In this document: one piece after another, positions 1,363 through 16,878 of the stretch
Position numbering within the stretch: the stretch's first letter is position 1
How the letters are laid out: each line of letters begins with the position of its first letter
Source: Anaeroplasma bactoclasticum
GTDB lineage: Bacteria > Bacillota_I > Bacilli_A > Acholeplasmatales > Anaeroplasmataceae
DNA: 39,796 bases
Direction of reading: 5' to 3'
NCBI GenBank assembly: GCA_023663825.1
Contig: JAMPGQ010000013.1
Span: 1 to 39,796, forward strand
Position numbers and translations under genes: made by a program
The notes under the pieces: generated by a model
Told to the model about the DNA's origin: nothing
Databases searched by the model: none
What the model saw: the letters and a program-made list of their open reading frames with translations, nothing else

Positions 1363-1878
1363 TTATTTTGCAGATTTTTCTATAAATCTTGCTGTAATAC
1401 TCTTTTTTAAATAAAGTCTTGTTATAATACCACTTATAATGCCTGTTCCGATTGATAAAAGACCAATTAAAGGTAAATAATATAAAACCGCTTGAGTCCC
1501 TAGTAAAATAATTGCTGCAATAACTTGTCCTGTGGCATGACTCACTGCCCCTAAAACTGACACTCCAATAGGAGAAAACACCTTAATTCTAGAGAATAAA
1601 TACATAACCAAAAAGGATAGCATTCCTCCACTTAAAGACATAATAAAAGTGGGAGATAAAAAATTACCTCTTAGTAATCCTACAAGCAAAATTCTTAAAA
1701 TGTTTACAGCAAGTGCTTCATAAGGTTTAAATTCATAAAGCATAATTAAAATAATGATATTGGCTAGTCCTAGTTTTACTCCTGGAATACCAAAGGGAAT
1801 AAAAGATTCTAATATATTTAGTACAATAGCCATAGCCAGCAGCATAGAAATTATGCAAAGTCGTTTTGTCTTACTCAT
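1363..1878 (-). CDS. Gx transporter family protein (Hpre_diP_synt_I family)
   Basis: Very hydrophobic protein of about 171 residues with five or six membrane segments. It resembles the family named heptaprenyl diphosphate synthase component I (PF07456), now usually called Gx transporter and related in shape to ECF S-components. Diagnostic stretches are GIPGVKLGLANI near residue 30 and SHATGQVIAA near residue 115. The longer frame reaching 1980 is rejected as start: the ATG at 1876-1878 overlaps the TGA of the upstream gene (ATGA), and the extra residues would be charged and lie inside the neighbour. It is the last gene of the apbE - NusG_II - Gx set. In other Firmicutes this family neighbours quinone, Rnf or extracellular flavin genes, so a role in flavin or isoprenoid precursor movement is plausible but unproven. 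Confidence 0.8.
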   Translation of the reverse strand: MSKTKRLCIISMLLAMAIVLNILESFIPFGIPGVKLGLANIIILIMLYEFKPYEALAVNILRILLVGLLRGNFLSPTFIMSLSGGMLSFLVMYLFSRIKVFSPIGVSVLGAVSHATGQVIAAIILLGTQAVLYYLPLIGLLSIGTGIISGIITRLYLKKSITARFIEKSAK

Positions 1879-2228
1879 ATGCCAACATCGACCTCGCTTC
1901 CTTCTAACTGGATAAACACCCTTTGAGGTAAACAGGTTATGGTCTGTCCTGCAGAATGAATCTTTCCTTGATGCATACAAACTTTATCTTTACAGCTTGA
2001 TGCTTTGACATATACCGTTTCATTTTCAATTACAATGACAACATCATTGACAACAAGCTCTTGATTCTTTTTAAGATCAACAACCTCCACTAATTCCTTA
2101 TCATAGTAGATATAAACGGATAAATTCCCTTTTTTCTGCAAAGTAAAATATAAAATCAAACCTATAATCGCTATTAAAATTAAGCTTGTAATTAAAATAA
2201 TATCGTTTCTAATTTTTTTCATAAGCAT
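1875..2228 (-). CDS. NusG domain II-containing membrane-anchored protein
   Basis: 117 residues: an N-terminal membrane segment (about 9-30) then a small extracytoplasmic beta domain. The Cys/His pattern SSC(79)KDKVC(84)MH(86)QG and a later TC(99)LPQRV are typical of the NusG_II family (PF07009), which is named only by similarity to an insert in NusG and is not a transcription factor. The gene overlaps the end of apbE by 20 nt and its TGA overlaps the ATG of the Gx gene, so the three are translationally coupled. The first ATG (2228) has AGG five nt upstream; the in-frame ATG at 2222 is an alternative. The conserved pairing with ApbE and Gx proteins suggests a redox or flavin-related envelope role; exact function unknown. 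Confidence 0.82.
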   Translation of the reverse strand: MLMKKIRNDIILITSLILIAIIGLILYFTLQKKGNLSVYIYYDKELVEVVDLKKNQELVVNDVVIVIENETVYVKASSCKDKVCMHQGKIHSAGQTITCLPQRVFIQLEGSEVDVGI

Positions 2229-3180
2229 CCATACCTATACTTTTATACATAGTTTTATTATCCTTAGAAACAATAAAATCAAGATTCTTTTCTTCTAAAA
2301 AAGCTTTAAGTTCCTCTAACTTCATAGCAAATCCAGCCGTAGTATATACATCTAAGATTTTAGAATCTTCACCAAGAATACTTAGTGTGTCATATAGCAT
2401 TGCAGGATAACCCGTCATAGGATTGAGTAAATGAGAGTACAATTTTCCTTCAATTTCGACATGCTGTTCTTTTATAGAGGATGTGGATATAGCTTTCTCT
2501 TGGATAGTTAAGGTTTCAAAATATCCTGTGGCTGTAGCCTTTTGCAAACCTACAGTAAATTCTTTTCCATTTTTATTTCCTAAAACAATATTGGAAGATC
2601 CTGCATTCAATAAATAAGAATGACAATCAATAGAATCCAAATATTTTTTTGCTTTGCTTGTGGCATACCCTTTAGCAACACCACCCAAATCTAAATTGCC
2701 TTCGCCAATAAGCTTTGCATGTAATCCTTCAAACTCTAGCCTAGTTTCATTCATAATTGAAAGTTCATCTTGAATCATTCTATCCTCAACTAGTTTTCCT
2801 TCCTCTAAAGCATCTTTCCATAAATGAGACAGTCTACCTATAAAAGGATTAAAGTATCCTTTAGTATCCTTAAACATATCTATACTAAATTCTAGCATTT
2901 CTTTTAATTCTTTCGTGACGTCGGCTTCTCTTTTCAAATTCAAATCATAAACATTGGTTTCTTTTTTTCCTTCTTGAAAATCATCTGAAACATTTTCATA
3001 GGTTAAATATATATTTTCAATCTCCTTTGCAATGTCCTTACTTTCTTTCACGTTATAAAATGTTAAGGATATAACAGTGTCCATTGCATAAAAAGTATAA
3101 GTATCTTTAGTTCCTTGTTGCGTACAGCTCGTGGTTAAAACAAAAAATAAAATTAATATAATTTTATATACTTTTTTCAT
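2209..3180 (-). CDS. apbE: FAD:protein FMN transferase lipoprotein
   Basis: ApbE covalently attaches FMN from FAD to threonine residues of exported proteins. The 323-residue length fits the family. The N-terminus is a lipoprotein signal (hydrophobic residues 6-17, lipobox TTSC, Cys19), so it acts on the outer face of the membrane. Family motifs: AMDTVISL (32-39), DLGGVAKGYA (164-173), HLLNPMTGYP (250-259) and the metal-binding D277-x3-T281. One deviation is LNAGSSN (191-197), where LNAGGN is usual. It is the first gene of a three-gene operon with a TATAAT -10 at 3203-3208 and an AAGGAAG ribosome site. No FMN-binding-domain substrate protein is encoded in this window, so its target lies elsewhere. 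Confidence 0.95.
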   Translation of the reverse strand: MKKVYKIILILFFVLTTSCTQQGTKDTYTFYAMDTVISLTFYNVKESKDIAKEIENIYLTYENVSDDFQEGKKETNVYDLNLKREADVTKELKEMLEFSIDMFKDTKGYFNPFIGRLSHLWKDALEEGKLVEDRMIQDELSIMNETRLEFEGLHAKLIGEGNLDLGGVAKGYATSKAKKYLDSIDCHSYLLNAGSSNIVLGNKNGKEFTVGLQKATATGYFETLTIQEKAISTSSIKEQHVEIEGKLYSHLLNPMTGYPAMLYDTLSILGEDSKILDVYTTAGFAMKLEELKAFLEEKNLDFIVSKDNKTMYKSIGMDAYEKN

Positions 3181-3324: not shown

Positions 3325-6300
3325 ATGAAAAAAATTTTTGCAGCGATAGCGTTTATTTTTTGTTTAATTTTAGTTTCTTGTAAAACTGGAACTACAAATT
3401 ATACAATCACTTATCATGATGAGGACAATATTACAGAAATACAATATAGTTCCAACGAGGTTATCCCCAATAAAGATATTTTAGGGAGTACAAAGGAAGG
3501 GTATGAATTAGAGGGTTGGTATTTTGATGCCCCTTATTCTTCTGTTGTTTCCTTTCCTTATACAGTAACTAAAGATGAAGATTTCTTTGCTAGGTGGATA
3601 AAAATCCACACTATAACATTAATGAGTGGGTCATCTACTATAAAATCTGAAAAAGTCAAAGATGGACAAACCTTCACTAATCCTGGAAATCCACAGCTGA
3701 CAGGAGTTGGAACTTTTAAAGGATGGTCTTCTGACAAAGATGAATATGTAGAATTCGACTTTAATACTAAAATTGAAAAGGATGTAATTCTATATGCTTT
3801 CTTTGATGATCCAACACCTTCAACAATTACTGTTTCTTTTATGGATAAAGACACCCTTGTTGAAGCAAAGGAAATTGAAAAAAACACAGCAGTTTCAAAA
3901 ATCACCGCCCCTGTTAAGAACGATTATATTTTCAAAGGCTGGTCTTCTAATAAGGACGAATATGTAGAATTTGACTTTGAAACAAAGTTAGTAGAAGATA
4001 CTAAACTTTATGCCTTCTATACAAAAAATACAGTAACTCCTGAAAAAATTACTGTTACCTTCAAAAATGAAGATACTGTACTTGAAACAAAATCAATAAA
4101 TAAGAATGATTCAGTTGAATCGATTACTGCTCCTTCTATAACAGGATACACCTTTAAGGGTTGGTCTACAAAAGAAAACGAGTATGTAGAGTTTGATTTC
4201 AAAAGTAAAATAGAAAGTGATTTAATCTTATATGCTATTTATGAAATCAACACCTTCACAGTGACTTATAAATGTAACGACACAACATACACTACCCAAA
4301 TTGTTGATTATAATTCGTCAACATCTACCCCCCCTACTCCTGCAATTACTGGCTATAAGTTTATTGAATGGTGTACAGATGAAAATTGTAAAACAGCTTA
4401 TGATTTTACTACTAAAATTACAACTAATATTACTTTATATGCAAAGCTTGATCCTGTAACAACACATAAGCTTACCTTAGTTATTGATGGAAAACAAACT
4501 CAAATTCAAATTAATAACAACTTTACAATCGATTCGGTTGATATTCCTATAAATTCAGGATATGAGGTTAAAACTTGGTATATTGATGAAAAATATACAA
4601 TCCCTTTTGATACAACAATAAAAATCACTAAAGATACTACTCTTTATGGAAACGCCTCTATTAAAACATTTACTGTAACATTTATAAACGAATCAACACC
4701 TTATGATATCAAAACAACAGATTATAATACTACAATAACTCTTCCATCTAATCCTTCCAAAACGGGATATACATTTAAAGGATGGTCTACAAAACAAAAA
4801 GAATATGTAGAATTTAATAAAAATCTACCAGTAACTGAAGACATCACTCTATATGCACACTATACAATTAACACCTATACAGTTACTTTCAAAGATGGAG
4901 AAACAACACTAAGTACAGATACTGTTGATTATAATACAACTGTTACACTTCCAGCGTTGTCTAATAAAACTGGTTATACTACTAAAGGATGGTCTACTGA
5001 TGCTACTTCTTTTATAGAGTTTAATGCAAATACAAAAATCACAACAAACACTACACTATATGCTTATTATGAAATTCAAACATATACTGTTACATTTATG
5101 AATGGTACTACTGCAGTTTCAACAAAAACGGTTAACTATAATTCTAATGTAGCACTTCCAACGACTATCCCTTCCAAAACTGGGCATACATTTAAGGGTT
5201 GGTCTACAAACGCTACTTCTTTTGTAGAATTTAGTGTAAACACAAAAATCACAACAAATACTACACTATATGCTTATTATGAAATTCAAACATTTACTGT
5301 AACATTTATGAACGGAACCACTAAATTAAGCGAAGTAACTGCAGATTATGATACAACCGTTACTACCATTCCTTCAAATCCTTCCAAAACAGGTTGGGTG
5401 TTTAAAGGTTGGTCTACAAACGAAGATACTTTGGTACCATTTAATTCAAATACAAAAATTACTTCAAATGCTACAATCTATGCATATTTCATTGAAGAAT
5501 TTACTGTTACATTTAATGTGGAAGGAACTAAAACAACCGTTAAAGTTGAAAGTGGAAACAAAGTACCTGAACCCGAAGATCCAGTAAAATCTGGATGTGG
5601 TTTTACAGGCTGGTATTTAGACAACACTAAATTCGACTTCAATATAGCTATAACAGAAAGTATTGAACTAGTTGCAGGATTTGTAAATGAGCAAGATGCT
5701 CCAATTGAAATTACAAAGTATAGTGGATATGGCGAAGGTCTATTCTTTGAAGCTACTCCTGTTGTAGGGGCAAATCTTTCCGATTATTCTGTACAATATA
5801 AATTGGTTTCCGATTCTTCTTGGAAAGCGGTAAACAAAGCGTTAATTCGGGAAGAAAATAACAAAATAAGATGTGATGTTGTAGGACTTCCTGCAGGATC
5901 TTATCAAGTCAAACTAGATGTAAACGGAAAATCAAAAACAATAACTTGTGAAGTTACAGCTCAAGACCGTTCAGGCTATGCACATTTCAATTATACTTCC
6001 GGAATTGGTGCTTATAATGATAATGGAACGCTTAAATCAGATGCAATAGTTGTTTATGTTACGAATGAAAACAAAAATACTGTTTCAATTGATGGTTATA
6101 GTTATGTCGGTTTAGTAAATATTATTCAAAATCAATCCAAAATAAAGAAACCTTTAGATATTCGTATTATAGGAAAGATTACAACAAATCAATATGCACC
6201 TAAATCAGATGCTCCAAGATTACCAGATGGTTCTAATAATACTTCTACTTTCTTTACAAATGCATTAGAAACAACTTATGGAGAAAATTTAATTGGTTTA

Positions 6301-8037
6301 ACTGTTCAATATATGGATAAACTAAAAGGTAAGTCTTATAAATTCTCAACAACAGCAACAGGACTACAATCAAATGGCACAGGTTCTTCTACTAAAAAAA
6401 CAACAACATACAACCGTGATCAATACCCTGCACTTACAGGAAAAACTGTATTAGACGATGATTCTTACTTTAATATGCTAGACATTGAATCAGCATCCAA
6501 TATAACCTTGGAAGGAATTGGTACAAATGCAGAATTCTTCCAATTCGGATTAACATGGAAAAAATGCACTTCTATAGAGATTAAAAATATCACATTCACA
6601 GATTATCCAGAGGATGCTTGTAGCTTTGAAGCTGGCAGTAACTCTGATGTAAATAATTATGGTCATTATTGGGTTCATAATAATACATTCAATCGTGGTA
6701 AAAACAATTGGGATGTATCTGGCGAAAGGGATAAGTATGCTGGTGATGGTGGAATTGATTTAAAATTCATCAATAGTGTTACAGTGGCTTATAACAAATT
6801 TGATAATTGTAAAAAGACTGGTCTAGTTGGGGGAGATAATAAGAACTATACAAAGAACATTACTTTCCATCACAACTATTATTACAAAGTAGAATCTAGA
6901 CTTCCTCTAGGTAGACAGGCAAATATGCATATCTATAATAATTACTATGAGGAATGCGGTACCTGTCAGGATATTCGTGCAAACGCCTTTGTATTCAGCG
7001 AAGCAAATTATTTCTACAAGTGTACAAACGCTCAAAAGGTTACAACAGATTCTACTTATGCTGCTACAATCATCAAATCCTTTAATGATTATTATGACGG
7101 AGGAAACAAATACAATTCCACTCAAGCTACCAAAGTTAATTCAAGAACTCAATCTTTATCTGGAAATTGTAAACCTGATGGATCCGCAGATTATACAAAC
7201 TTTGATACGAACTCTACATTATTCTATTATACTGGCAGCGCTTCAAAAGTATCTGTACTTCATACAAATACCGAAGTCCCTGATTTCTGTAAAACAAATT
7301 CTGGCGTTCTAAAAAGCAATATAACTTCTAGTGGAACCCCAGAACCTACACCATCTGGAGAATATTCAATTACATATGTAAGTGCATATGGAACAACACC
7401 TACCAAAGTAACTGGAACTTCTGCTTTACCTAATCCACTACCTGTATTACAAGAAAATGGTTGGACATTTAAAGGTTGGTATACAAAGAATACTTATGAA
7501 GAAAGTAGTAAAGCTGTTGCTGGAGCAACGTTAACACAAAATATTACTCTTTATGCAAAATGGGAAGAGGCTCAAGGAGAAAATCCAACCACGAACAAAA
7601 TAACTATAACATTTGATTCCTTGACAACCGGAACTGTTACTTCTGTCACTACTTCTACAGGTGCAACCCTACAAAAAGGTGGCTCCTCTAAAGACATAAA
7701 AGTTGCAGAGGGCAACAAGACAGTTAATGGAACTCAATTAAGTAAATATGTTAATGTTGCTGGTGGCGGTAATTATACAGACTTAAGTATCGCCTTTACA
7801 ACTACACAAACGGCTAATATAACAATTTATTATGCTAATCCAGGATCCTCCGGAACTAATCGTTATATTGCATTATATACTGCAACTGGACTGGTTGATC
7901 AGAATGCAACTGGAGCTGCTCCTGGCGGAAACATTGTAAGTTATACTTATCAAAATATGTCTGCTGGAAGCTATGCTGCAGCCTCTAAAGGTTCTGGATT
8001 GAATATCTATATGATTGTTATTGAATATGTAGATTGA
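3325..8037 (+). CDS. Lipoprotein PL1-type pectate lyase with N-terminal InlB B-repeats
   Basis: Large surface enzyme (1570 residues) predicted to cleave polygalacturonate by beta-elimination. It begins with a lipoprotein signal (lipobox LVSC, Cys19). Residues about 25-790 hold roughly eleven Listeria-Bacteroides (InlB B / Flg_new) repeats of about 70 residues, each with GYTFKGWSTN-like and TLYAYYE-like segments. A linker domain (about 795-870) leads to a right-handed beta-helix catalytic part (about 875-1315). There, DGGIDLK (1141-1147), K1164-TGL, HHNYYYKVES-R1192-LPLG-R1197 and HIYNNYY resemble family PL1 PelC; Lys to Arg spacing (28) and Arg to Arg spacing (5) agree with PelC as I remember it. 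One more B-repeat follows (about 1345-1405), then a C-terminal beta domain (1415-1570), possibly carbohydrate-binding. Start ATG has an AAGGA site 7 nt upstream. Monocistronic, head-on to replication. Confidence 0.9.
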   Translation: MKKIFAAIAFIFCLILVSCKTGTTNYTITYHDEDNITEIQYSSNEVIPNKDILGSTKEGYELEGWYFDAPYSSVVSFPYTVTKDEDFFARWIKIHTITLMSGSSTIKSEKVKDGQTFTNPGNPQLTGVGTFKGWSSDKDEYVEFDFNTKIEKDVILYAFFDDPTPSTITVSFMDKDTLVEAKEIEKNTAVSKITAPVKNDYIFKGWSSNKDEYVEFDFETKLVEDTKLYAFYTKNTVTPEKITVTFKNEDTVLETKSINKNDSVESITAPSITGYTFKGWSTKENEYVEFDFKSKIESDLILYAIYEINTFTVTYKCNDTTYTTQIVDYNSSTSTPPTPAITGYKFIEWCTDENCKTAYDFTTKITTNITLYAKLDPVTTHKLTLVIDGKQTQIQINNNFTIDSVDIPINSGYEVKTWYIDEKYTIPFDTTIKITKDTTLYGNASIKTFTVTFINESTPYDIKTTDYNTTITLPSNPSKTGYTFKGWSTKQKEYVEFNKNLPVTEDITLYAHYTINTYTVTFKDGETTLSTDTVDYNTTVTLPALSNKTGYTTKGWSTDATSFIEFNANTKITTNTTLYAYYEIQTYTVTFMNGTTAVSTKTVNYNSNVALPTTIPSKTGHTFKGWSTNATSFVEFSVNTKITTNTTLYAYYEIQTFTVTFMNGTTKLSEVTADYDTTVTTIPSNPSKTGWVFKGWSTNEDTLVPFNSNTKITSNATIYAYFIEEFTVTFNVEGTKTTVKVESGNKVPEPEDPVKSGCGFTGWYLDNTKFDFNIAITESIELVAGFVNEQDAPIEITKYSGYGEGLFFEATPVVGANLSDYSVQYKLVSDSSWKAVNKALIREENNKIRCDVVGLPAGSYQVKLDVNGKSKTITCEVTAQDRSGYAHFNYTSGIGAYNDNGTLKSDAIVVYVTNENKNTVSIDGYSYVGLVNIIQNQSKIKKPLDIRIIGKITTNQYAPKSDAPRLPDGSNNTSTFFTNALETTYGENLIGLTVQYMDKLKGKSYKFSTTATGLQSNGTGSSTKKTTTYNRDQYPALTGKTVLDDDSYFNMLDIESASNITLEGIGTNAEFFQFGLTWKKCTSIEIKNITFTDYPEDACSFEAGSNSDVNNYGHYWVHNNTFNRGKNNWDVSGERDKYAGDGGIDLKFINSVTVAYNKFDNCKKTGLVGGDNKNYTKNITFHHNYYYKVESRLPLGRQANMHIYNNYYEECGTCQDIRANAFVFSEANYFYKCTNAQKVTTDSTYAATIIKSFNDYYDGGNKYNSTQATKVNSRTQSLSGNCKPDGSADYTNFDTNSTLFYYTGSASKVSVLHTNTEVPDFCKTNSGVLKSNITSSGTPEPTPSGEYSITYVSAYGTTPTKVTGTSALPNPLPVLQENGWTFKGWYTKNTYEESSKAVAGATLTQNITLYAKWEEAQGENPTTNKITITFDSLTTGTVTSVTTSTGATLQKGGSSKDIKVAEGNKTVNGTQLSKYVNVAGGGNYTDLSIAFTTTQTANITIYYANPGSSGTNRYIALYTATGLVDQNATGAAPGGNIVSYTYQNMSAGSYAAASKGSGLNIYMIVIEYVD
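5032..5310 (+). repeat. Near-identical 210-bp spaced direct repeat inside the lyase gene
   Basis: Bases 5032-5100 and 5242-5310 are 69 nt long and differ at only three positions; the spacing is exactly 210 bp, one 70-residue B-repeat. The other B-repeats are far more divergent at DNA level, so this pair looks like a recent unit duplication or gene conversion event. Confidence 0.8.
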
Positions 8038-9575: not shown

Positions 9576-11108
9576 TTAAAATAGTGGTGCAAACAAATAT
9601 AGAATATAGGATATAACCTTTTGCCACCAAGGTCTCTTCTTCCATTCCTCATATGTAATTTGATGACTCTCTTCACATGCCTTTAAGAAGTCATCTTGCA
9701 TATGATGGATTTCATCATCCAGCAAAATTACAGCACCACATTCATAGTGTAAAAACATACTTCGATAATCCATATTTACAGTACCAATAAACGCATATTT
9801 ATTATCTACAATAATGTTTTTAGCATGATTGAACCCCTTTGTAAATTCATATATCTTTCCACCTGCATTTAATATATCTCTATAATGTGATCTAGCTAAA
9901 TAAAATGCAGTTTTTTTATCAGGAATTCCTGGCATAAGAATTCTTACATCTACACCACTTTTAGCAGCTAGCACGATGCTTTCCAAAATTCCATTATCAA
10001 TAACTAAATACGGAGTGGAAATATAAAGAGTTTTGTCTGCACTAGTAATAAGTGAACGAAATACATCATAACTATAGTTGATTTGATTAGAGGGTCCATC
10101 TCCAAAAGGAATAACAAAACTAGAGTTTCTAGATATTTCAGATTCTACATAATAATTTTCTAATTTCAATATGGTCTTTGTAGACATGTACCACATTTCA
10201 ATAAACATCGCAGTAAAACTAGCTACTGCTTCACCTTCATATTTGCCACAATTATCACGCCAAAATCCAAAACGTTCTTTTTCGTGGATATATTCGTCTG
10301 CATAATTATCTCCGCCACAATAAGCTATCCTACCATCAATGATTGTAATTTTTCGGTGATCTCGATAATTGAAGGCTGGGTTTATATTTAAACCTAATGG
10401 ATTATAATTTGTAATTTGACAATTTGGTATCTTCGTAATTTGTTTAATTGTTTTATTTTTTAAAGTGGCTTTAGACCCCAAATCATCATAGATGATTTTT
10501 ATTTCTATTCCCTCTTCCCCCTTTTGCTTAAGAATAGGTAATAATTGGGAAAGTAGATATCCATCTCCCATAATAAAGGTTTCGATAAAAATGAAACGTT
10601 TTGCTTGTTTTAGTTCAAGTAAAAGATCATCAAATTTTAATCTCCCATCATTTAAAAATGTATAGTTTGTATCCTTATAAACTGGATAATTTAATACCTT
10701 TGCATATCGAACTGCCTTTGAATCTAATACCCCAAGTTCATTTATAACATCACTTTTTGTGTTATATTTTTCTAATTCAGCATTGATTTTTCTTTGTTTG
10801 TATCTAGGCAGTCTTCTACTTGATGAGTTTAAGGCATAAAACAAACTAAAGGGCAAGGGAAGAATCAAAATCAAAATAGACCACGTCAGCTTATAGCTTG
10901 TTAATATTGGTTTATGAATGATATGCAATACTAAAACAAATCCAATTGCCTCAATAACCAAATAAAGAACTATATTTAATTGATTTGAAAAGTTAATTTG
11001 AAACATTAACGCAAACAAGGTAATTTGTAATGCAAATACAACCAGCGTTAATATAACAGTAAATATTTTCTTCCAAATAGGAAGACTTCTTCTTTCATTT
11101 TGGGTCAA
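9576..11108 (-). CDS. cls: Cardiolipin synthase (phospholipase D family)
   Basis: Condenses two phosphatidylglycerol molecules into cardiolipin at the membrane. Two HKD motifs are present (numbering from this start): H251-RK-ITII-D258 and H428-AK-NIIV-D435, each with the downstream GG/GT and N or D residues usual in the family. Three membrane segments precede them (about 12-95), with a short PLDc_N-type linker; length about 510 residues is normal. The TTG at 11106-11108 is preferred over the TTG at 11123 because GGAGG lies 8 nt upstream of it, overlapping the end of the histidine kinase gene. It is the third gene of a tightly packed RR-HK-cls operon, which suggests that membrane cardiolipin content is under direct control of this two-component system. 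Confidence 0.93.
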   Translation of the reverse strand: MTQNERRSLPIWKKIFTVILTLVVFALQITLFALMFQINFSNQLNIVLYLVIEAIGFVLVLHIIHKPILTSYKLTWSILILILPLPFSLFYALNSSSRRLPRYKQRKINAELEKYNTKSDVINELGVLDSKAVRYAKVLNYPVYKDTNYTFLNDGRLKFDDLLLELKQAKRFIFIETFIMGDGYLLSQLLPILKQKGEEGIEIKIIYDDLGSKATLKNKTIKQITKIPNCQITNYNPLGLNINPAFNYRDHRKITIIDGRIAYCGGDNYADEYIHEKERFGFWRDNCGKYEGEAVASFTAMFIEMWYMSTKTILKLENYYVESEISRNSSFVIPFGDGPSNQINYSYDVFRSLITSADKTLYISTPYLVIDNGILESIVLAAKSGVDVRILMPGIPDKKTAFYLARSHYRDILNAGGKIYEFTKGFNHAKNIIVDNKYAFIGTVNMDYRSMFLHYECGAVILLDDEIHHMQDDFLKACEESHQITYEEWKKRPWWQKVISYILYLFAPLF

Positions 11109-11123
11109 TTCTGCCACCTCCAA

Positions 11124-12404
11124 TTATTTCGTGATAATAAAGGAAACCCCTATTGGTTCGTTTTTTACAATAAGATGCATTCCAAAGAAATCTACTGTCT
11201 TTTGAACAATAGACATTCCTAAACCAAATTCCCCTTTACTTCCTTTTTCATAAGGCTTAAAGGAATGCTTAATAAACTGCTCATCTATAGGTTCTCCATC
11301 ATTATATATTCTTAGCCTATCTTTTTTCAAAACTACTTTTATTTTGGTTTTTGCATATCTCCTAGCATTATCTATTATATTATCTACAATTGTAAAATAA
11401 TTTTCTCGATACCCTTTAAAAAAGATATCCTCTGTCAGATCCAATTCTATATTGAGTTCTGTTTGGAATTTATATCCCATAACAACCTCTTCTACAACCT
11501 CTTTCATATCAACATCCTCAAATTCACGATTCTTTTCTAGATACTCTAAGGAGTTATATTGCAATAAACGGTTCACTTTATTTTTTAATATTTCAGCCTG
11601 TGCTATAATAATTTTACTACTATTTTCATCTGCCATTCCATCTTGCTGAGCCTCTGCGTAAGACTTTATTACCGCTATTGGTGTCTTAAAATCATGACTC
11701 ATATTTTGTAGCATCTCTTGTTTTTGACGTTCGCTTTCCTCAATTTCAATTCGCATTGTTTCTATTGCACGAGAAAGTTCACCAACCTCATCTAAGCCAT
11801 CATCCTGATATGATATATTATATCCGTTTTTAGGCAGTTCTAAAATATGCCCTTGAAGTTGATGAAGTCTTTTGGTAAATTGATTACTCCAAATAACAAC
11901 ACAAATTGTAGCCAAACATATAATAATGATAAATGCCATTATCAATTGAAATGAAATTCGTCTAGAAAAATTATTTACATATAATGAATTCGTCATAATC
12001 AAATTTATTCCTTGTCCATCTGCAGATATATTAGCTACATAATAAATTGTTTTTCCTTCTAAATTTATAATTCTTCTTTTCAAAGATGGTTTATTTTGCT
12101 TCGCAAAGCCATCTAATACATTTTGTAATTCCTTTTCGCTCATATACTCAGAAATATCATTGGAATAAACAATTGCGTTCTTTCTAATTTGCACAAAACC
12201 AATTTGCATATCCTTTATAACCTCATCTGGTCTTGCTTCATGAGAATCGAGAAGAGAAGAATATGTAATTAATCTTGTATAGGTTTCTTGTTCTGCTACA
12301 TATTTCAATCGACTCGCTGTGACTATTGTAAAAAGAGCTACAGATATAATTAATACAAATGAAAATAAGATTGCAATCTGTCCTGTAATAGATAGTTTTT
12401 TCAT
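11124..12404 (-). CDS. Sensor histidine kinase of the cls operon
   Basis: 426 residues. Two membrane segments (about 9-29 and 152-172) bracket an extracytoplasmic sensor of about 120 residues. A HAMP-like linker (175-225) leads to the HisKA box NMSHDFKTP with phospho-acceptor H237. The HATPase domain has the N-box VDNIIDNARRY (N347), YNDG (D370) and GEFGLGMS (392-399). The G1 box is short (NDGEP rather than DNG.G), as in several EnvZ/VanS-like kinases. Its ATG overlaps the TGA of the response regulator (ATGA at 12401-12404), and cls starts just after its stop. Ligand unknown; coupling to cls hints at membrane or cell-wall stress sensing. Confidence 0.93.
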   Translation of the reverse strand: MKKLSITGQIAILFSFVLIISVALFTIVTASRLKYVAEQETYTRLITYSSLLDSHEARPDEVIKDMQIGFVQIRKNAIVYSNDISEYMSEKELQNVLDGFAKQNKPSLKRRIINLEGKTIYYVANISADGQGINLIMTNSLYVNNFSRRISFQLIMAFIIIICLATICVVIWSNQFTKRLHQLQGHILELPKNGYNISYQDDGLDEVGELSRAIETMRIEIEESERQKQEMLQNMSHDFKTPIAVIKSYAEAQQDGMADENSSKIIIAQAEILKNKVNRLLQYNSLEYLEKNREFEDVDMKEVVEEVVMGYKFQTELNIELDLTEDIFFKGYRENYFTIVDNIIDNARRYAKTKIKVVLKKDRLRIYNDGEPIDEQFIKHSFKPYEKGSKGEFGLGMSIVQKTVDFFGMHLIVKNEPIGVSFIITK

Positions 12405-13078
12405 AATATCATCCTATATCCAAATCCATAAATGGTTTCTATCTGAAGCTCTGGTAATTTTTGACGTAATCTTCTTAAAAGATCATCTACAACTCGATCA
12501 CTACCAAAATAGTCTTCTCCCCAAACTCCATTTAATATTTGATCACGTGAAAAAGCTTTACCAGGATTATTTAATAAATAAACTAATAAATCATATTCTT
12601 TTGAAGTTAAGGAAATCGCCTCACCTTCACAAGAAACACATCTACGATCTTTATCCACAACATACTTTCCTACAACAACTTCATTTTTATGAATGTGTGC
12701 AGTATTATATTCGTATGATCTTACTAATAAATTCTTCACTCTAAGAACAAGCTCTCTTATGGAATAAGGTTTTGCTAAGTAATCGTCACTACCTAATTCT
12801 AATCCCATAATTTTATCAATATCCTGATCACGAGCAGATGTAAATACAACAGGCATAGTTGGTGTATGCTCTTTTATTTTTTTAATCAAATCATAGCCGC
12901 TTACAATTCCAGGAAGCATAATATCTAATATCCAAAGATCGACCGGTTCTTCGTTTATACTCTTTAATGCATCTTCTCCGTTGTTATACCATTTGACATT
13001 ATATCCTTCTGCACATAAATACTTTACAACTAAAGAGGCTAAATTTTTTTCATCTTCAACAATTGCCACTGTATACAT
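12401..13078 (-). CDS. OmpR/PhoB-family response regulator of the cls operon
   Basis: 225 residues. The receiver domain has acidic pocket E8/D9, phospho-acceptor D52 in ILDIMLPG, T80-S81 and K103 in LAKPYS. The C-terminal winged helix (about 130-225) contains SLTSKEYDLLVYLLNNPGK and the recognition segment DRVVDDLLRRLRQKL. It is the first gene of the RR-HK-cls operon. A TATAAT -10 lies at 13099-13104 and a GAAGGTG ribosome site just upstream of the ATG. Immediately upstream is an unusual cluster of inverted repeats (13122-13253). Confidence 0.95.
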   Translation of the reverse strand: MYTVAIVEDEKNLASLVVKYLCAEGYNVKWYNNGEDALKSINEEPVDLWILDIMLPGIVSGYDLIKKIKEHTPTMPVVFTSARDQDIDKIMGLELGSDDYLAKPYSIRELVLRVKNLLVRSYEYNTAHIHKNEVVVGKYVVDKDRRCVSCEGEAISLTSKEYDLLVYLLNNPGKAFSRDQILNGVWGEDYFGSDRVVDDLLRRLRQKLPELQIETIYGFGYRMIL

Positions 13079-13299: not shown

Positions 13300-13683
13300 T
13301 TATTTTTGCTCATTTAAAAGCTCTTCAGATAATTTTAATATTTCTTCTCTATATTTTGTCTTTAATCGTTTAGAGATAATAGAATGAACAAGATACGCAG
13401 GCAAAACAATTGCTGCACCTAAAATCATAATTAAAATACCAATAAGAATTAAATCCCATTCTAAGATACAGGTTAATCCTGTTCCAAAGACTAATATACC
13501 AACAACGCCCATAGTATAGGCAATTACATTGGGTATATGATTGACTTTAGAATCTAAAGACTTAAGTCTTTTTAATTTTTCATTCTTTGGATTTTCTAAA
13601 AGATACTTTTGTTGTATATTATTTATTTCTTTTCTTTCTTCTTGTGTAGGAGCTTGATATTCATATGCAAATTTTTCAGCCAT
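13300..13683 (-). CDS. Small two-TM membrane protein, paralog of the gene at 16413
   Basis: 127 residues. A charged, probably helical N-terminus with KLKRLKSLDSKVNH is followed by two membrane segments (about 55-75 and 80-103) and a basic, helical tail ending KLSEELLNEQK. The same plan and many of the same residues occur in the protein encoded at 16413-16760 (LDELKRLDQKVNR, then ELSNELLNN), so the two are paralogs. Members of this family are sometimes labelled dihydropteridine reductase in databases, to my recollection, but nothing in the sequence supports an enzyme. The ATG at 13681-13683 has GGAGG 9 nt upstream and overlaps the kinase gene by 8 nt; the longer frame to 13734 is rejected. Function unknown, coupled to the kinase. 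Confidence 0.82.
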   Translation of the reverse strand: MAEKFAYEYQAPTQEERKEINNIQQKYLLENPKNEKLKRLKSLDSKVNHIPNVIAYTMGVVGILVFGTGLTCILEWDLILIGILIMILGAAIVLPAYLVHSIISKRLKTKYREEILKLSEELLNEQK

Positions 13684-14710
13684 TGCTTCTTCCCTCCAAA
13701 ACCACACTAAACTTAGTTTTCTTTCCAACTTCACTTTTAACAGAAATTGTTCCGCCTAATACATCTATTACTTTTTTAACAAGAGCTAGTCCTAGTCCAT
13801 TGCCTTCTTTAGAATGAGATGTATCAGCTTGATAAAATTTATCGAAAATATGTTTCCCTTCTTCAGGGCTCATTCCACATCCATTGTCTTCGATTGTAAA
13901 GTAAACCTTATCGTTTTGTTGTTTTAAAATAATTTTTATTCTTCCCTTGGAATCACTAAACTTAATTGCGTTAGATATAAGATTACTCCAAATAATATCT
14001 AAATAACTCTTTTCATTTTTAATAATTACATTCTCTTCTAAATCACAAACAAGTTCTATTTTCTTTTCTTCTAACAAATGATCAAATGAAATGATTTGAT
14101 CAGTAAGGGCCTCGGTCAAATTAAATTCTTTAAATTCTGGAATAATTGTTCCATTTTCTAGTTTGTTTAATTTTAATATGTTTGTTACTAAATTAGATAG
14201 TTTTTTGCAAGAAGATTGTAGTGTATCTAAATATTTCATTTTAGCTTCTTCGTCCAATTTTGGATTATTTAAGGCCTGAGCATAGGTTTGAATAACAGAA
14301 AGTGGGGTTTTTATTTCGTGTGACACATTAGAAATAAAATCCGTTTTTAACACTTCATTTTTAGATAATTCTTGGGCTAATACATTCAAATCCATTTTAA
14401 TGCTGTCATATGGATTAAAACGATTTCGATGCTTTATTGTTAAATCAATATTAAAATCTCCTGTAGACATTTTTTTTGTGGCTTCTAATATTTCTTTTAC
14501 TGGTGCTTCTTCTGTTAGCTTTCTTCTAATGAAATCTATCATTGCACAAATCAAGGAAGAACAAATAATAAAAATTAAGATGACAATTGCTACAACAGCC
14601 TCATCCTTATCTGAAATTAAAGAATAAACTACAACTGCTAAGCTTGCATTAAAAGCAATTGTAATAAATAAAATGAGAAACCCTGTAAATGTATCTAATT
14701 TACTTCTCAT
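13676..14710 (-). CDS. Short-loop (intramembrane-sensing type) histidine kinase
   Basis: 344 residues. Two membrane helices (about 9-31 and 38-60) are separated by only about seven residues (SDKDEAV), so there is no real extracytoplasmic sensor; this is the layout of BceS/LiaS-like intramembrane-sensing kinases. A HAMP-like linker follows, then the HisKA box SNVSHEIKTPLS with H131, N-box WSNLISNAIKF (N247), DNGCGMS (D275) and GNGLGLAL. ATG overlaps the regulator's TGA (ATGA at 14707-14710) and its end overlaps the start of the small two-TM gene. Kinases of this type usually take their signal from a partner membrane protein; the 318-residue protein upstream and the two-TM paralogs are the obvious candidates here. 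Confidence 0.93.
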   Translation of the reverse strand: MRSKLDTFTGFLILFITIAFNASLAVVVYSLISDKDEAVVAIVILIFIICSSLICAMIDFIRRKLTEEAPVKEILEATKKMSTGDFNIDLTIKHRNRFNPYDSIKMDLNVLAQELSKNEVLKTDFISNVSHEIKTPLSVIQTYAQALNNPKLDEEAKMKYLDTLQSSCKKLSNLVTNILKLNKLENGTIIPEFKEFNLTEALTDQIISFDHLLEEKKIELVCDLEENVIIKNEKSYLDIIWSNLISNAIKFSDSKGRIKIILKQQNDKVYFTIEDNGCGMSPEEGKHIFDKFYQADTSHSKEGNGLGLALVKKVIDVLGGTISVKSEVGKKTKFSVVLEGRSNG

Positions 14711-15378
14711 TTCAATACCACCTTATATCCTAGTCCATGAATCGTTTGGATTTCAAAACCATCGCAAGCTTTTGTTTTATCTCTAAGCTTAGATAAATAG
14801 ACATCTACTGTTCTAGAGGTTGCTGAAGAATCATAATCCCAAAATTGTTCCATTAATGCAGAACGGGTAAAGATTTTTTTAGGATTAGAAAGCAAATGAA
14901 ATAAAATATCAAACTCTCTAACAGATAAGGATATATCTTCTTGATTCACTTTAGCAGTATGCTCCTCTCGATTCATTGTAAAATTTTTAATCGTAATTTC
15001 ATTAGAAATCGAAATATCTAATCTTCTAGATATGGCTTTTAATTTAAAGCCAAGCTCATCTAAATCAAAGGGCTTTGTTATATAATCATCAATTCCTACT
15101 TTATATCCAATTTGCTTAGATGGTTTATCATCTCTTGCAGACATAAACAAAATTGGCACTTTATTATCTTTTTCTCTTATAGTTCGTGCAAGTTCAAATC
15201 CATCACATAAAGGCATCATAATATCACTTAATATGATATCTATCTTTTCTTCATAAAACACATTTAAAGCATCTAAGCCATTTTGTACAGAAGATACATC
15301 ATATCCTAAAGATTTTAAATACGTTGTGATTACTATATTTAAATCCTTATCATCTTCTGCCAATAATATTTTGGTCAT
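14707..15378 (-). CDS. OmpR-family response regulator
   Basis: 223 residues. Receiver domain: D9/D10 in LLAEDD, phospho-acceptor D52 in ILSDIMMP, S80, K102 in ITKPFD. The winged helix (about 128-223) has SLSVREFDILFHLLSNPKK and the recognition region SRTVDVYLSKLRDK. GGAGG lies 9 nt before the ATG, inside the last codons region of the 318-residue membrane protein gene, which ends 4 nt upstream. So the order is membrane protein, regulator, kinase, small two-TM protein, all tightly spaced. Confidence 0.95.
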   Translation of the reverse strand: MTKILLAEDDKDLNIVITTYLKSLGYDVSSVQNGLDALNVFYEEKIDIILSDIMMPLCDGFELARTIREKDNKVPILFMSARDDKPSKQIGYKVGIDDYITKPFDLDELGFKLKAISRRLDISISNEITIKNFTMNREEHTAKVNQEDISLSVREFDILFHLLSNPKKIFTRSALMEQFWDYDSSATSRTVDVYLSKLRDKTKACDGFEIQTIHGLGYKVVLK

Positions 15379-15382
15379 CTAT

Positions 15383-16339
15383 TTATGCCTCCTCCTGTTC
15401 TTCTAGCTTTATACAACTATGTGAAGTCATTAGCTTATCCAATTTCTTTATTAATCCTGCGTTCTTAAAGTGAAAAATTATAGCCCCTATTGCATAAGGA
15501 AAGATTAATATTTCAGATAATATAATAACTAATATCAAGACAAAAACATTCCATTTAAATATGGGATTTTTTTCTTGTAGTACTAATCCATCTACTATTT
15601 TATTCTCTATTTTCCCAATGTAATAGTAGTTTCCGTAAAATTTAGAATTAGTAAGTTTAAATTTAAATCGGTCTTCTGTCAAATCGGAAGTTTCTGTCAT
15701 TTTATAGACGTTATGCTTTCTATCTATGATACTTACCATAGGTGCAATAAACACATAAATACCTAAAATGATAATAAGAACTCCAATTCCAATACCAAAC
15801 CAGCAATCAATAACCTGAGTATTTGTGCTATTCGCAAAGGACATAATTGCCATTTCGGTTAAAGACATTGCAGTTAAGGCAGAGCATAAGCTAATCATTT
15901 TTATATTCCTATAGTAGTGTCCTTTACCATAAGCATTTAAACATCCTTTAATTGCAACACCTAGTTCTATAAAAGAAACAAAAGCAATTATCGTTCCTTC
16001 GCTCATAGTATAGACTTTCATTTCAAATATAGAAAACAACAATAAAATCATATAAATTGTATAGCTTACTCCTGCAAGTAATAAAAATGTACCAACAAAA
16101 TTATTTCTATAACGGAAAGATTTACGATGTGTTTTTGTAATTCCTAAATAACATTCAAATCTAGATAGCATCATAAAAACGTTAATTGCGGCCGTAACAA
16201 AAAATACTGTATTGATTAAAAAGCCTAAAATGACTTTACCTAAAGCTAAAATTAAGTTGAAAAGTATAGAGAATCTAGCATGAAATATTGTTCGATTTTC
16301 AAAACTTAGATTTCTGTATTTCTTGACAAAACCTAACAT
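15383..16339 (-). CDS. Polytopic membrane protein of unknown function, first gene of TCS operon
   Basis: 318 residues with about seven hydrophobic segments (about 22-60, two or three helices from 85 to 135, 150-168, 182-207, and 265-295) and a hydrophilic stretch (208-262) that is probably cytoplasmic or extracytoplasmic sensor-like. I do not recognise a named family. There are no ATP-binding or catalytic motifs. It begins an operon that continues without gaps into the response regulator, kinase and small two-TM protein. By analogy with short-loop kinases, it could be the actual sensor or transporter that informs the kinase. The ATG has GGAG 8 nt upstream. Confidence 0.8.
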   Translation of the reverse strand: MLGFVKKYRNLSFENRTIFHARFSILFNLILALGKVILGFLINTVFFVTAAINVFMMLSRFECYLGITKTHRKSFRYRNNFVGTFLLLAGVSYTIYMILLLFSIFEMKVYTMSEGTIIAFVSFIELGVAIKGCLNAYGKGHYYRNIKMISLCSALTAMSLTEMAIMSFANSTNTQVIDCWFGIGIGVLIIILGIYVFIAPMVSIIDRKHNVYKMTETSDLTEDRFKFKLTNSKFYGNYYYIGKIENKIVDGLVLQEKNPIFKWNVFVLILVIILSEILIFPYAIGAIIFHFKNAGLIKKLDKLMTSHSCIKLEEQEEA

Positions 16340-16362
16340 AAAACCTACTCCAATCTGAATTC

Positions 16363-16368
16363 ATTATA
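16363..16368 (-). promoter_or_regulatory. -10 element of the second TCS operon
   Basis: TATAAT (AGTATAATG) on the minus strand, 24 nt before the ATG of the 318-residue gene. The -35 is not convincing. It directly follows the terminator of the preceding two-TM gene. Confidence 0.5.
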
Positions 16369-16374
16369 CTATAA

Positions 16375-16406
16375 TCAAAACAAAATATCCATCTTTAAAT
16401 GATGGA
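16375..16406 (-). terminator. Weak terminator after the 115-residue two-TM gene
   Basis: On the minus strand TCCATC and GATGGA (16388-16406) make a 6-bp stem with a 7-nt loop, extendable by a T-A and a G-T pair, followed by ATTTTGTTTT. It is close behind the stop codon at 16413. Confidence 0.5.
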
Positions 16407-16412
16407 CATTTC

Positions 16413-16760
16413 TTAATTATTAAGTAATTCGTTACTTAATTCTACAATTCTTTTGCTATATTTAGATTTTCTTGCTTTTAATATTTTTTGATAAAGTGGA
16501 TAATTGATGCATGCCATTATAATTCCAACAACACCGATAACTATACCTAAATAAAATAAATTTTTTAGTATTACTTTCATAGCTATACACATTCCTACAC
16601 CTAAAATTAAACTACCTAAAATTCCAAAAGTATAGGCAAAAATTAAAGCAGGTCGATTGACCTTTTGATCTAACCTTTTCAACTCATCAAGCTTTGTTGA
16701 CTCCTTTGCCTGATATTGTCTTGCAACCTTTTCTACATAATTTTTTTCACCATTATTCAT
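16413..16760 (-). CDS. Small two-TM membrane protein, paralog of the gene at 13300
   Basis: 115 residues. An N-terminal charged region with LDELKRLDQKVNRP precedes two membrane helices (about 38-60 and 68-90) and a basic amphipathic tail ending RIVELSNELLNN. It shares this whole plan with the 127-residue protein on the far side of the two-component operon, so one arose by duplication or they form a pair. It has its own AAGGAGG ribosome site and a TATACT -10-like element about 30 nt upstream. The database label dihydropteridine reductase for this family looks unfounded because there is no nucleotide-binding motif. Function unknown; a membrane partner of the kinase is a reasonable guess. Confidence 0.82.
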   Translation of the reverse strand: MNNGEKNYVEKVARQYQAKESTKLDELKRLDQKVNRPALIFAYTFGILGSLILGVGMCIAMKVILKNLFYLGIVIGVVGIIMACINYPLYQKILKARKSKYSKRIVELSNELLNN

Positions 16761-16878
16761 TTCTTTTCCTCCTTAAGTTTACACCTATAGTATAAGCATT
16801 AATTTTAAAAGATTTTTTTAAGAAATGTTAAAGTTTTGTAAAAGCGTAATATTTTAGATATTTTTATTTTACTAGTAT

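Follow-up and report, generated by a model that had tools for sequence, protein, structure and literature searches.

In LiaFSR, a membrane accessory protein stands beside a sensor-less kinase; LiaS is a HisKA_3 kinase and LiaR a LuxR-type regulator, whereas the regulator of BceRS is of the OmpR type. Kinases without an outer domain can rely on accessory membrane proteins, some of which are transporters, and the intramembrane-sensing kinase of BceRS–BceAB needs a membrane partner for sensing (reviewed in PMC8534201). The SaePQRS system of Staphylococcus aureus contains SaeS, a 351-residue kinase whose two membrane helices are separated by a linker of some nine residues, and has two auxiliary genes in its operon, which is induced by its own regulator; a complex of SaeP and SaeQ with SaeS induces the phosphatase activity of SaeS, and TTAA is central in the binding sequence of the Sae regulator (PMC5083920). 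CprABCK-R combines a lantibiotic-induced two-component system with ABC transporters that have six-helix permeases, and ABC exporters of the BcrAB/LanFEG kind are known from lantibiotic immunity and resistance (PMC5786555). Here we analyse a five-gene two-component cassette of Anaeroplasma bactoclasticum, encoded on contig JAMPGQ010000013.1 (assembly GCA_023663825.1). The 39,796 nucleotides of this stretch, which we call the window, belong to a draft genome of 2.06 Mb in 98 contigs. On the minus strand the gene order is 2TM_A, P318, RR1, HK1, 2TM_B: a response regulator (RR1) and a histidine kinase (HK1), preceded by a 318-residue membrane protein (P318) and bracketed by two small two-helix proteins. 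We favour, with moderate confidence, the reading that this cassette is an autoregulated envelope-stress module in which 2TM_B, and perhaps P318, would be the partner of the kinase.

A recurrent cassette with an intramembrane-sensing kinase

An earlier note, made from the letters of the window, had described a two-component island in which a kinase without an extracytoplasmic sensor and an unrecognised 318-residue protein are bracketed by paralogous two-helix proteins. All five genes lie where that note placed them, and each part of the description was borne out. The membrane helices of HK1 (approximately residues 10–31 and 38–60, read from the sequence) are joined by only about 6–10 residues. 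Because this loop is so short, HK1 has no extracytoplasmic sensor and is an intramembrane-sensing kinase, a class defined here by two N-terminal helices, a loop well under 25 residues and the absence of any other sensor domain. The only sensor or kinase domains of HK1 above cut-off are HisKA and HATPase_c, an overlapping GHKL-type ATPase match aside. Neither protein belongs to the PhoR–PhoB/PnpS group by NCBIfam equivalog scores: HK1 reaches 198 bits against a cut-off of 400 (PnpS) and RR1 154 bits against 296 (PhoB, TIGR02154). The reading frame of HK1 overlaps that of RR1 by 4 bp and that of 2TM_B by 8 bp, which indicates that these three genes are tightly coupled. 2TM_A and 2TM_B are genuinely paralogous (33% identity, E = 1e-13; profile–profile E = 5e-32). 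A comparison of P318 with the 2TM proteins detected no homology (hhalign probability 2.8), and no Pfam or NCBIfam family matches 2TM_A, 2TM_B or P318 above cut-off.

The set RR1–HK1–(P318)–2TM_B recurs across Bacilli and Clostridia. Of the 55 genomes of the organism's own family, 21 have P318 and 29 have 2TM proteins. The full five-gene order occurs again in three of them (G047, G043 and, at a different chromosomal place, G004; G and L numbers denote genomes and loci), and a four-gene form without P318, 2TM_A–RR1–HK1–2TM_B, occurs in another three (G003, G018, G025). The usual order in Clostridia (341 genomes) is RR1–HK1–P318c–2TM_B, at about 16 loci, and related orders are found in Bacilli. 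P318c is a relative of P318 of about 300 residues (hhalign 99.5%, E = 1e-22 across the six-helix core), and its extension is N-terminal rather than C-terminal as in P318. A scan of named genomes with 2TM_B returned 9 loci. The named relatives that carry the cassette come from metagenomes and include uncultured Mollicutes, Anaeroplasmataceae, Bacillales, Erysipelotrichaceae, Acholeplasmatales and Clostridia.

Judged by this linkage, 2TM_B is the best candidate for an accessory partner that would contact HK1. For 27 of 31 distinct 2TM_B genes, the gene lies in a same-strand run with HK1, or for 28 of 31 if L215 is counted after correction of an ORF-calling artefact. The three exceptions are L210, where it is found with an ABC pair, L217, which holds a P318–2TM_B pair, and L261, a four-helix variant with a TetR gene. 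Conversely, all 11 HK1-type kinases among the 55 family genomes adjoin a 2TM protein, that of L082 being the least typical (the search used E < 1e-70 and all 11 kinases returned have E < 1e-140). Conserved linkage to such kinases, which the earlier note had proposed as its own test, was therefore found in two bacterial classes. The associations of 2TM_A are different: 45 of 73 distinct genes are linked to a TetR-type gene without a kinase (TetR_C_8 in the one checked), and in 17 of these a P318-like gene of about 205–230 residues is linked as well. Since the 2TM_A and 2TM_B loci were largely gathered with 2TM baits, these fractions describe 2TM genes and not genomes.

When plasmids and phages were searched, 2TM_A turned up in three plasmid records from Lachnospiraceae and in no phage. 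A relative on a Roseburia plasmid (L170:4998-5351; NZ_CP135163.1) has 117 residues and two helices and is followed by TetR and MFS genes. The NCBI name 'dihydropteridine reductase' for a 2TM_A relative is a misnomer, because a two-helix protein this small cannot be that enzyme; the 115-residue 2TM_A has no reductase domain match. Four-helix proteins of about 131–151 residues, which look like a tandem duplicated 2TM unit, adjoin P318-like genes (Table 1).

An operator with two promoter geometries

A repeated sequence noticed upstream of the cassettes yielded the operator consensus TWWACAAAACTTTAACA. OmpR/PhoB-type regulators bind 11-bp direct repeats of this kind. The copy in the window is the sole match there at ≤2 mismatches (0.36 expected) and the sole match in the whole genome at ≤1 mismatch. 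Across 46 genomes, exact copies are present in 15 of the 22 that have HK1 and in 0 of the 24 that lack it (Fisher p = 3e-7), and nearly every copy is located at a cassette. G047 has an unlinked copy 61 bp ahead of a tandem ABC operon; one copy in G004 precedes a coiled-coil gene that comes after 2TM_B, and one in G018 is at a contig edge. None of 47 TetR-linked 2TM_A genes has the operator, their best matches carrying 4–7 mismatches, which is about background. In G044 and G049, two genomes without HK1, the operon orthologous to the ABC operon of G047 has an adjacent divergent TetR gene and no operator. Comparing L373 (G047) with L375 (G044) and L376 (G049) thus reveals an apparent exchange of regulators, with one target placed under either regulator kind.

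The distance from the operator to the −10 box falls into two classes. In 11 promoters before 2TM_A the best spacing is 31 bp (mean 5.36 of 6 matches; 0 of 5000 shuffles), and in 15 promoters before RR1 it is 9 bp (mean 4.73; 0 of 5000 shuffles); several of these sequences are closely related and not independent, those of L076, L082, L204, L205 and L260 being distant. Approximately 12 of the 15 RR1 promoters fit individually, often with an extended TGn ahead of the −10 box. The 31-bp class further includes the promoters of a coiled-coil gene (L058), epimerases (L076, L080, L085) and ABC genes (L373). Because the 22-bp difference corresponds to two repeat periods, RR1 would sit on the same face of the DNA in both classes. 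Three observations support the operator independently: genomes without HK1 lack it, an unlinked copy precedes ABC genes, and the spacings are fixed. The literature searched held no description of the operator sequence or of the module.

These promoters assign different roles to the two paralogs. Because the operator and an output promoter precede 2TM_A, it is likely an output and not a sensor, and we dropped 2TM_A as a candidate sensor once this promoter had been found. The earlier note had suggested that one or more of the membrane proteins senses the signal; a sensor role for both bracketing paralogs is not supported, as 2TM_A carries the operator and promoter of a regulator target and is more often found with TetR genes. 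That note had also placed the paralog upstream of the operon. The paralogy stands, and it is preferable to count 2TM_A into the unit, as its opening gene, than to leave it outside. In turn, the operator-bearing promoter before RR1 argues that RR1–HK1–P318c–2TM_B is autoregulated. In the window, a terminator-like hairpin (one of 7 in the region, 1.1 being expected) and a promoter-like site separate 2TM_A from P318, so 2TM_A may be produced in excess of the other cassette genes, which would fit an output. We regard the site before P318 as a weak second promoter because promoter-like sites are not clearly commoner here than in shuffles.

A predicted zinc-transporter fold without the metal site

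In its predicted structure, P318 has the six-helix transmembrane fold of the CDF family. The AlphaFold2 model (27 sequences; pLDDT 81.6, pTM 0.72) contains six membrane helices, then a short stretch of beta structure and one or two more helices. A Foldseek search with this model placed ZnT transporters at ranks 1–14 (best E = 5e-3), and VIA-align gave Z scores of 13.8 to 8.0 for 32 ZnT/YiiP entries, the first unrelated chain scoring 7.5. Because Z scores below ~13 can reflect the mere arrangement of helices in helical bundles, a second model, of a clostridial P318 protein, is important: it reaches Z = 18.2 with an rmsd of 3.1 over 189 residues, against 9.3 for the best unrelated chain. An hhalign comparison of the P318 family with about 20 CDF proteins from relatives gave E = 3.9e-6, collinear across all six helices, and a short P318 relative aligns with PF01545 over residues 2–191 of 198 (E = 7e-5, under the cut-off). 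At the gathering score of PF01545, P318 itself has no match and its best relative attains 23.1 of the 26.6 bits required. A P318 profile search of PDB sequences found nothing meaningful (best match EmrB, E = 0.11), and the clostridial form had no match. It is the combination of structure and profile comparison from which the relation to CDF proteins emerges.

The positions of P318 that align with the zinc ligands in TM2 and TM5 are T49, M56, I149 and S153. As read from the hhalign alignment, on which the assignment of these columns hinges, Asp or His is found at the four positions in 0 of 27 P318 relatives; a single Asp in TM5 is present in 3 of 19 clostridial relatives. As regards the cytoplasmic C-terminal metal-binding domain of CDF proteins, the structural matches to CDF chains span residues 6–207 of P318 only, and the remainder is unaligned. 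P318 thus appears to keep the CDF scaffold yet to fail the defining metal site of the family. A normal CDF protein is additionally present in 19 of 21 relatives searched, including the genome of the window.

P318 is separable from the kinase. In sister genomes G044, G045, G048 and G051, it still follows the rpoE-like gene (with other genes intervening in G048), and RR1, HK1 and 2TM_B are not adjacent. HK1 has no match whatsoever in G044, G045 and G048, and in G051 it is found at a separate locus without P318. Outside the family, a P318 bait retrieved loci of which 13 were inspected; a 2TM gene is adjacent at 9 of them, and most have a TetR gene or no kinase. The earlier note had stated that wide occurrence of the membrane proteins without the kinase would refute its proposal, and for P318, which it had tied to the kinase, this is what we found.

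One ORF, on one short contig, fuses P318 to 2TM_B. Joint alignments of the two families for this protein were misaligned and were dropped, so the fusion was modelled with P318 relatives alone; the 2TM part has a pLDDT of about 44–73, and no interface is readable. Elsewhere, a P318-like membrane domain is fused to a GrpB domain (L152:2104-3306; PF04229, E = 4e-38).

Outputs associated with the cassette in relatives

Pairs of ABC_tran and ABC2_membrane_4-like genes, often two in tandem, adjoin the cassette at six loci (L094, L095, L162, L205, L213, L220). The permeases have about six helices, and the pairs are of the BcrAB/LanFEG type. PLD-type (cardiolipin synthase-like) genes accompany the cassette at L220 and L260. 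At eight loci (L073, L082, L094, L204, L205, L209, L213, L220), 2TM_A is followed by a highly charged, coiled-coil-like protein of about 80–100 residues with the sequence FKKAFxDMKESAKAQHEVDKAxFEA..., which has no Pfam family. Judged from these associations and operators, the module in relatives probably turns on envelope defences, directed against membrane-damaging antibiotics.

Examples of the charged protein are L073:333-572, L204:6334-6585, L094:10478-10723 and L058:9356-9667, with 2TM_A or an operator before the gene. In several relatives, NAD-dependent epimerase genes (3-beta-HSD-like) with an operator in front head the cassette operon (L080:8359-9363, L076:3026-4045).

Neither in nor beside the cassette of the window is there an ABC transporter gene, in agreement with the earlier note, which had reported the lack of a Bce-type transporter; the regulon of relatives nonetheless holds ABC transporters of the BcrAB/LanFEG kind. 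The genome of the window has no close homolog of the cassette-associated ABC proteins. Its best match is to the ABC ATPase, at only 42% identity, and the genome therefore represents a minimal form of the module.

Gene context in the window

Table 1. Positions of the cassette genes, their putative control elements and related four-helix proteins
Feature	Position	Strand	Remarks
Operator TTTACAAAACTTTAACA (TTTACA-N5-TTAACA, 11-bp direct repeat)	16826-16842	-	Exact match; upstream of 2TM_A; putative RR1 site
-10 box TATACT, 31 bp past operator	16789-16794	-	Best spacing in 11 aligned 2TM_A promoters
2TM_A, 115-aa two-helix membrane protein	16760-16413	-	ATG preceded by AAGGAGG; putative output
Terminator-like hairpin between 2TM_A and P318	16382-16412	-	Putative function
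Promoter-like site TGGATA-17-TATAAT preceding P318	16363-16391	-	Possible second promoter, weak
P318, 318-aa membrane protein	16339-15383	-	Predicted CDF-fold six-helix core, ~residues 9-207; metal ligands gone
RR1, 223-aa OmpR/PhoB-type response regulator	15378-14707	-	Response_reg + Trans_reg_C
HK1, 344-aa intramembrane-sensing HisKA histidine kinase	14710-13676	-	HisKA + HATPase_c; SHEIKTP motif; H131-E-x-x-T
2TM_B, 127-aa two-helix membrane protein	13683-13300	-	N-terminal FxYxYxAPTxxER motif; length counted from ATG, mechanical ORF longer; putative kinase partner
Four-helix 2TM-like proteins	L154:6532-6927; L158:5733-6128; L160:6387-6782; L317:2884-3339

The cassette is flanked on one side by rpoE(delta)-like, DUF1934, bofA-, recR-, ybaB- and dnaX-like genes (named by eye, DUF1934 excepted) and on the other by an RR2–HK2–cardiolipin synthase operon. 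The place of this operon (9576-13078) is conserved genus-wide, even where RR1 and HK1 are missing (L052, L054–L057). A trio of ApbE-like, NusG-II-like and Gx-transporter-like genes, named by eye, occupies 1363-3180; a similar trio directly follows the P318–2TM_B pair at L217:6994-8899, possibly by coincidence. An ORF of 1570 residues at 3325-8037 is lipoprotein-like, contains many 'FxGWSxxxxxYxxF'-type repeats and probably encodes a surface protein.

Proposed mechanism and alternative readings

The conservation of the cassette, its regulon, the promoter geometry, the fold of P318 and the loss of its ligands were derived from sequence comparison and structure prediction, and are consistent with the following mechanism. 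HK1, which has almost nothing outside the membrane, would relay a disturbance in or at the membrane. 2TM_B, co-translated with HK1, would be a dedicated membrane partner that sets its kinase/phosphatase state. Phosphorylated RR1 would bind the 11-bp repeat and activate both the output (31 bp) and the autoregulatory (9 bp) promoters. In this genome, the whole set may form one unit behind one output-type promoter; because that promoter serves the unit, activation would raise 2TM_A and, via read-through, P318 and the regulators. P318 could work alongside the 2TM proteins within the membrane, as a membrane-protecting effector or possibly as a second kinase accessory beside 2TM_B. Damage to the envelope, or an antimicrobial that acts on the membrane, is the most likely stimulus.

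Several points weigh against this mechanism. Binding by RR1, and activation rather than repression of its targets, are inferred, and the same applies to the stimulus, to what P318 does and to any contact of 2TM_B with HK1. The operator consensus was derived from the same cassettes in which it was then found. The antimicrobial reading is borrowed from relatives, because the genome of the window has no close homolog of the ABC pairs. P318 is missing from five cassettes (L073, L076, L080, L083, L085) and occurs elsewhere without a kinase, and is therefore not an obligatory part. The P318–2TM_B fusion ORF could be an assembly indel.

Two alternative readings divide the membrane proteins differently. 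If 2TM_B and P318 together were the sensor, the two would join HK1 in a membrane complex; a ligand (lipid, antimicrobial or cation) would occupy the CDF-like pocket of P318, and 2TM_B would couple this binding to the helices of the kinase. HK1 has no outer domain, P318c and 2TM_B directly follow it in most clostridial cassettes behind the autoregulatory promoter, the fusion ORF joins the two proteins, and the P318–2TM_B pair of L217 retains an operator-like site with no adjoining kinase. We nevertheless consider such a sensor complex rather doubtful, given that several HK1–2TM_B cassettes lack P318, that sister genomes keep P318 without the kinase at the same chromosomal place (L052, L055–L057), and that P318 is also found with TetR regulators. 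The more specific proposal, that a zinc-transporter fold, TetR-coupled elsewhere, has here been turned into a sensor subunit that perceives membrane-active antimicrobials for the kinase together with 2TM_B, strikes us as unlikely. Alternatively, all three membrane proteins might be membrane-protecting effectors, leaving HK1 to sense unaided by means of its two helices, a mode that has been proposed for certain kinases of this class. The many 2TM_A genes accompanied by TetR without a kinase, among them those with a P318-like gene, would be explained in this way, as would the output promoter before 2TM_A and the 2TM_B gene of L210, which adjoins an ABC pair in the absence of a kinase. What makes it rather doubtful is the behaviour of the 2TM_B subfamily, which, unlike 2TM_A, tracks HK1 nearly one to one and whose gene overlaps that of HK1.

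A role of P318 as an active metal or cation exporter, and of the module in metal resistance, would fit the CDF transmembrane fold and the distant Cation_efflux similarity. We consider it very improbable: the ligand positions carry no Asp or His in any of the 27 relatives, its partners in the regulon, ABC exporters and enzymes acting on lipids or sugars, do not include metal genes, and nearly all relatives searched have a normal CDF protein as well. The metal-resistance reading was dropped on the evidence of the ligand columns. The envelope-stress module with 2TM_B as the putative partner of HK1 is the reading we retain, and the earlier interpretation of the locus as an undescribed sensory complex is partly supported.

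Significance and comparison with known systems

The regulon described here, comprising a regulator, a sensor-less kinase, an operator, two promoter geometries and their targets, is apparently undescribed in gut Bacilli and Clostridia. It gives a context to unnamed membrane families, one of which is misnamed a reductase in databases, and reveals a predicted zinc-transporter fold without a metal site that travels with regulators. If membrane partners inform the kinase, the module bears on how sensor-less kinases learn of envelope damage; if P318 and 2TM_B were the sensor, it would represent a further route, next to ABC transporters of the Bce type and accessory proteins of the Lia or Sae type. 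Its practical relevance lies in how gut commensals survive host and bacterial antimicrobial peptides.

P318 resembles the CDF/ZnT/YiiP (SLC30) proteins in its predicted six-helix transmembrane fold and distant sequence similarity, and differs from them in having lost the metal ligands and in showing no alignment to CDF chains past residue 207. BceRS–BceAB likewise pairs an intramembrane-sensing kinase with an OmpR-type regulator; its membrane partner is a permease of the ABC class whose outer domain is large, and none is present in the window. The module would work like LiaFSR/LiaIH, with an accessory membrane protein next to a sensor-less kinase; its putative outputs in several relatives include a small membrane protein and then a soluble coiled-coil-like protein, a layout that recalls LiaI–LiaH; in contrast to LiaFSR, the kinase is of the HisKA type and the regulator of the OmpR type (Trans_reg_C), and Pfam identifies no LiaF relative among the membrane proteins of the cassette. 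Like CprABCK-R and LanFEG, the cassettes of L094, L205, L213 and L220 carry ABC genes of this kind, and in G047 the operator precedes such genes. Here, however, each of two ATPases is paired with a permease, where those systems have a single ATPase and two permeases; the 2TM and P318 proteins are additional components, and the cassette in the window has no ABC gene. The Sae regulon consists of virulence factors, whereas that of the HK1 set in relatives includes ABC exporters; by description, SaeP, a lipoprotein, and SaeQ, a four-helix protein, are set apart from the 2TM and P318 proteins, with no known kinship. Compared by gene order and kinase anatomy, the cassette is nonetheless like SaePQRS, in which a short-loop kinase is likewise combined with two auxiliary genes of the same operon.

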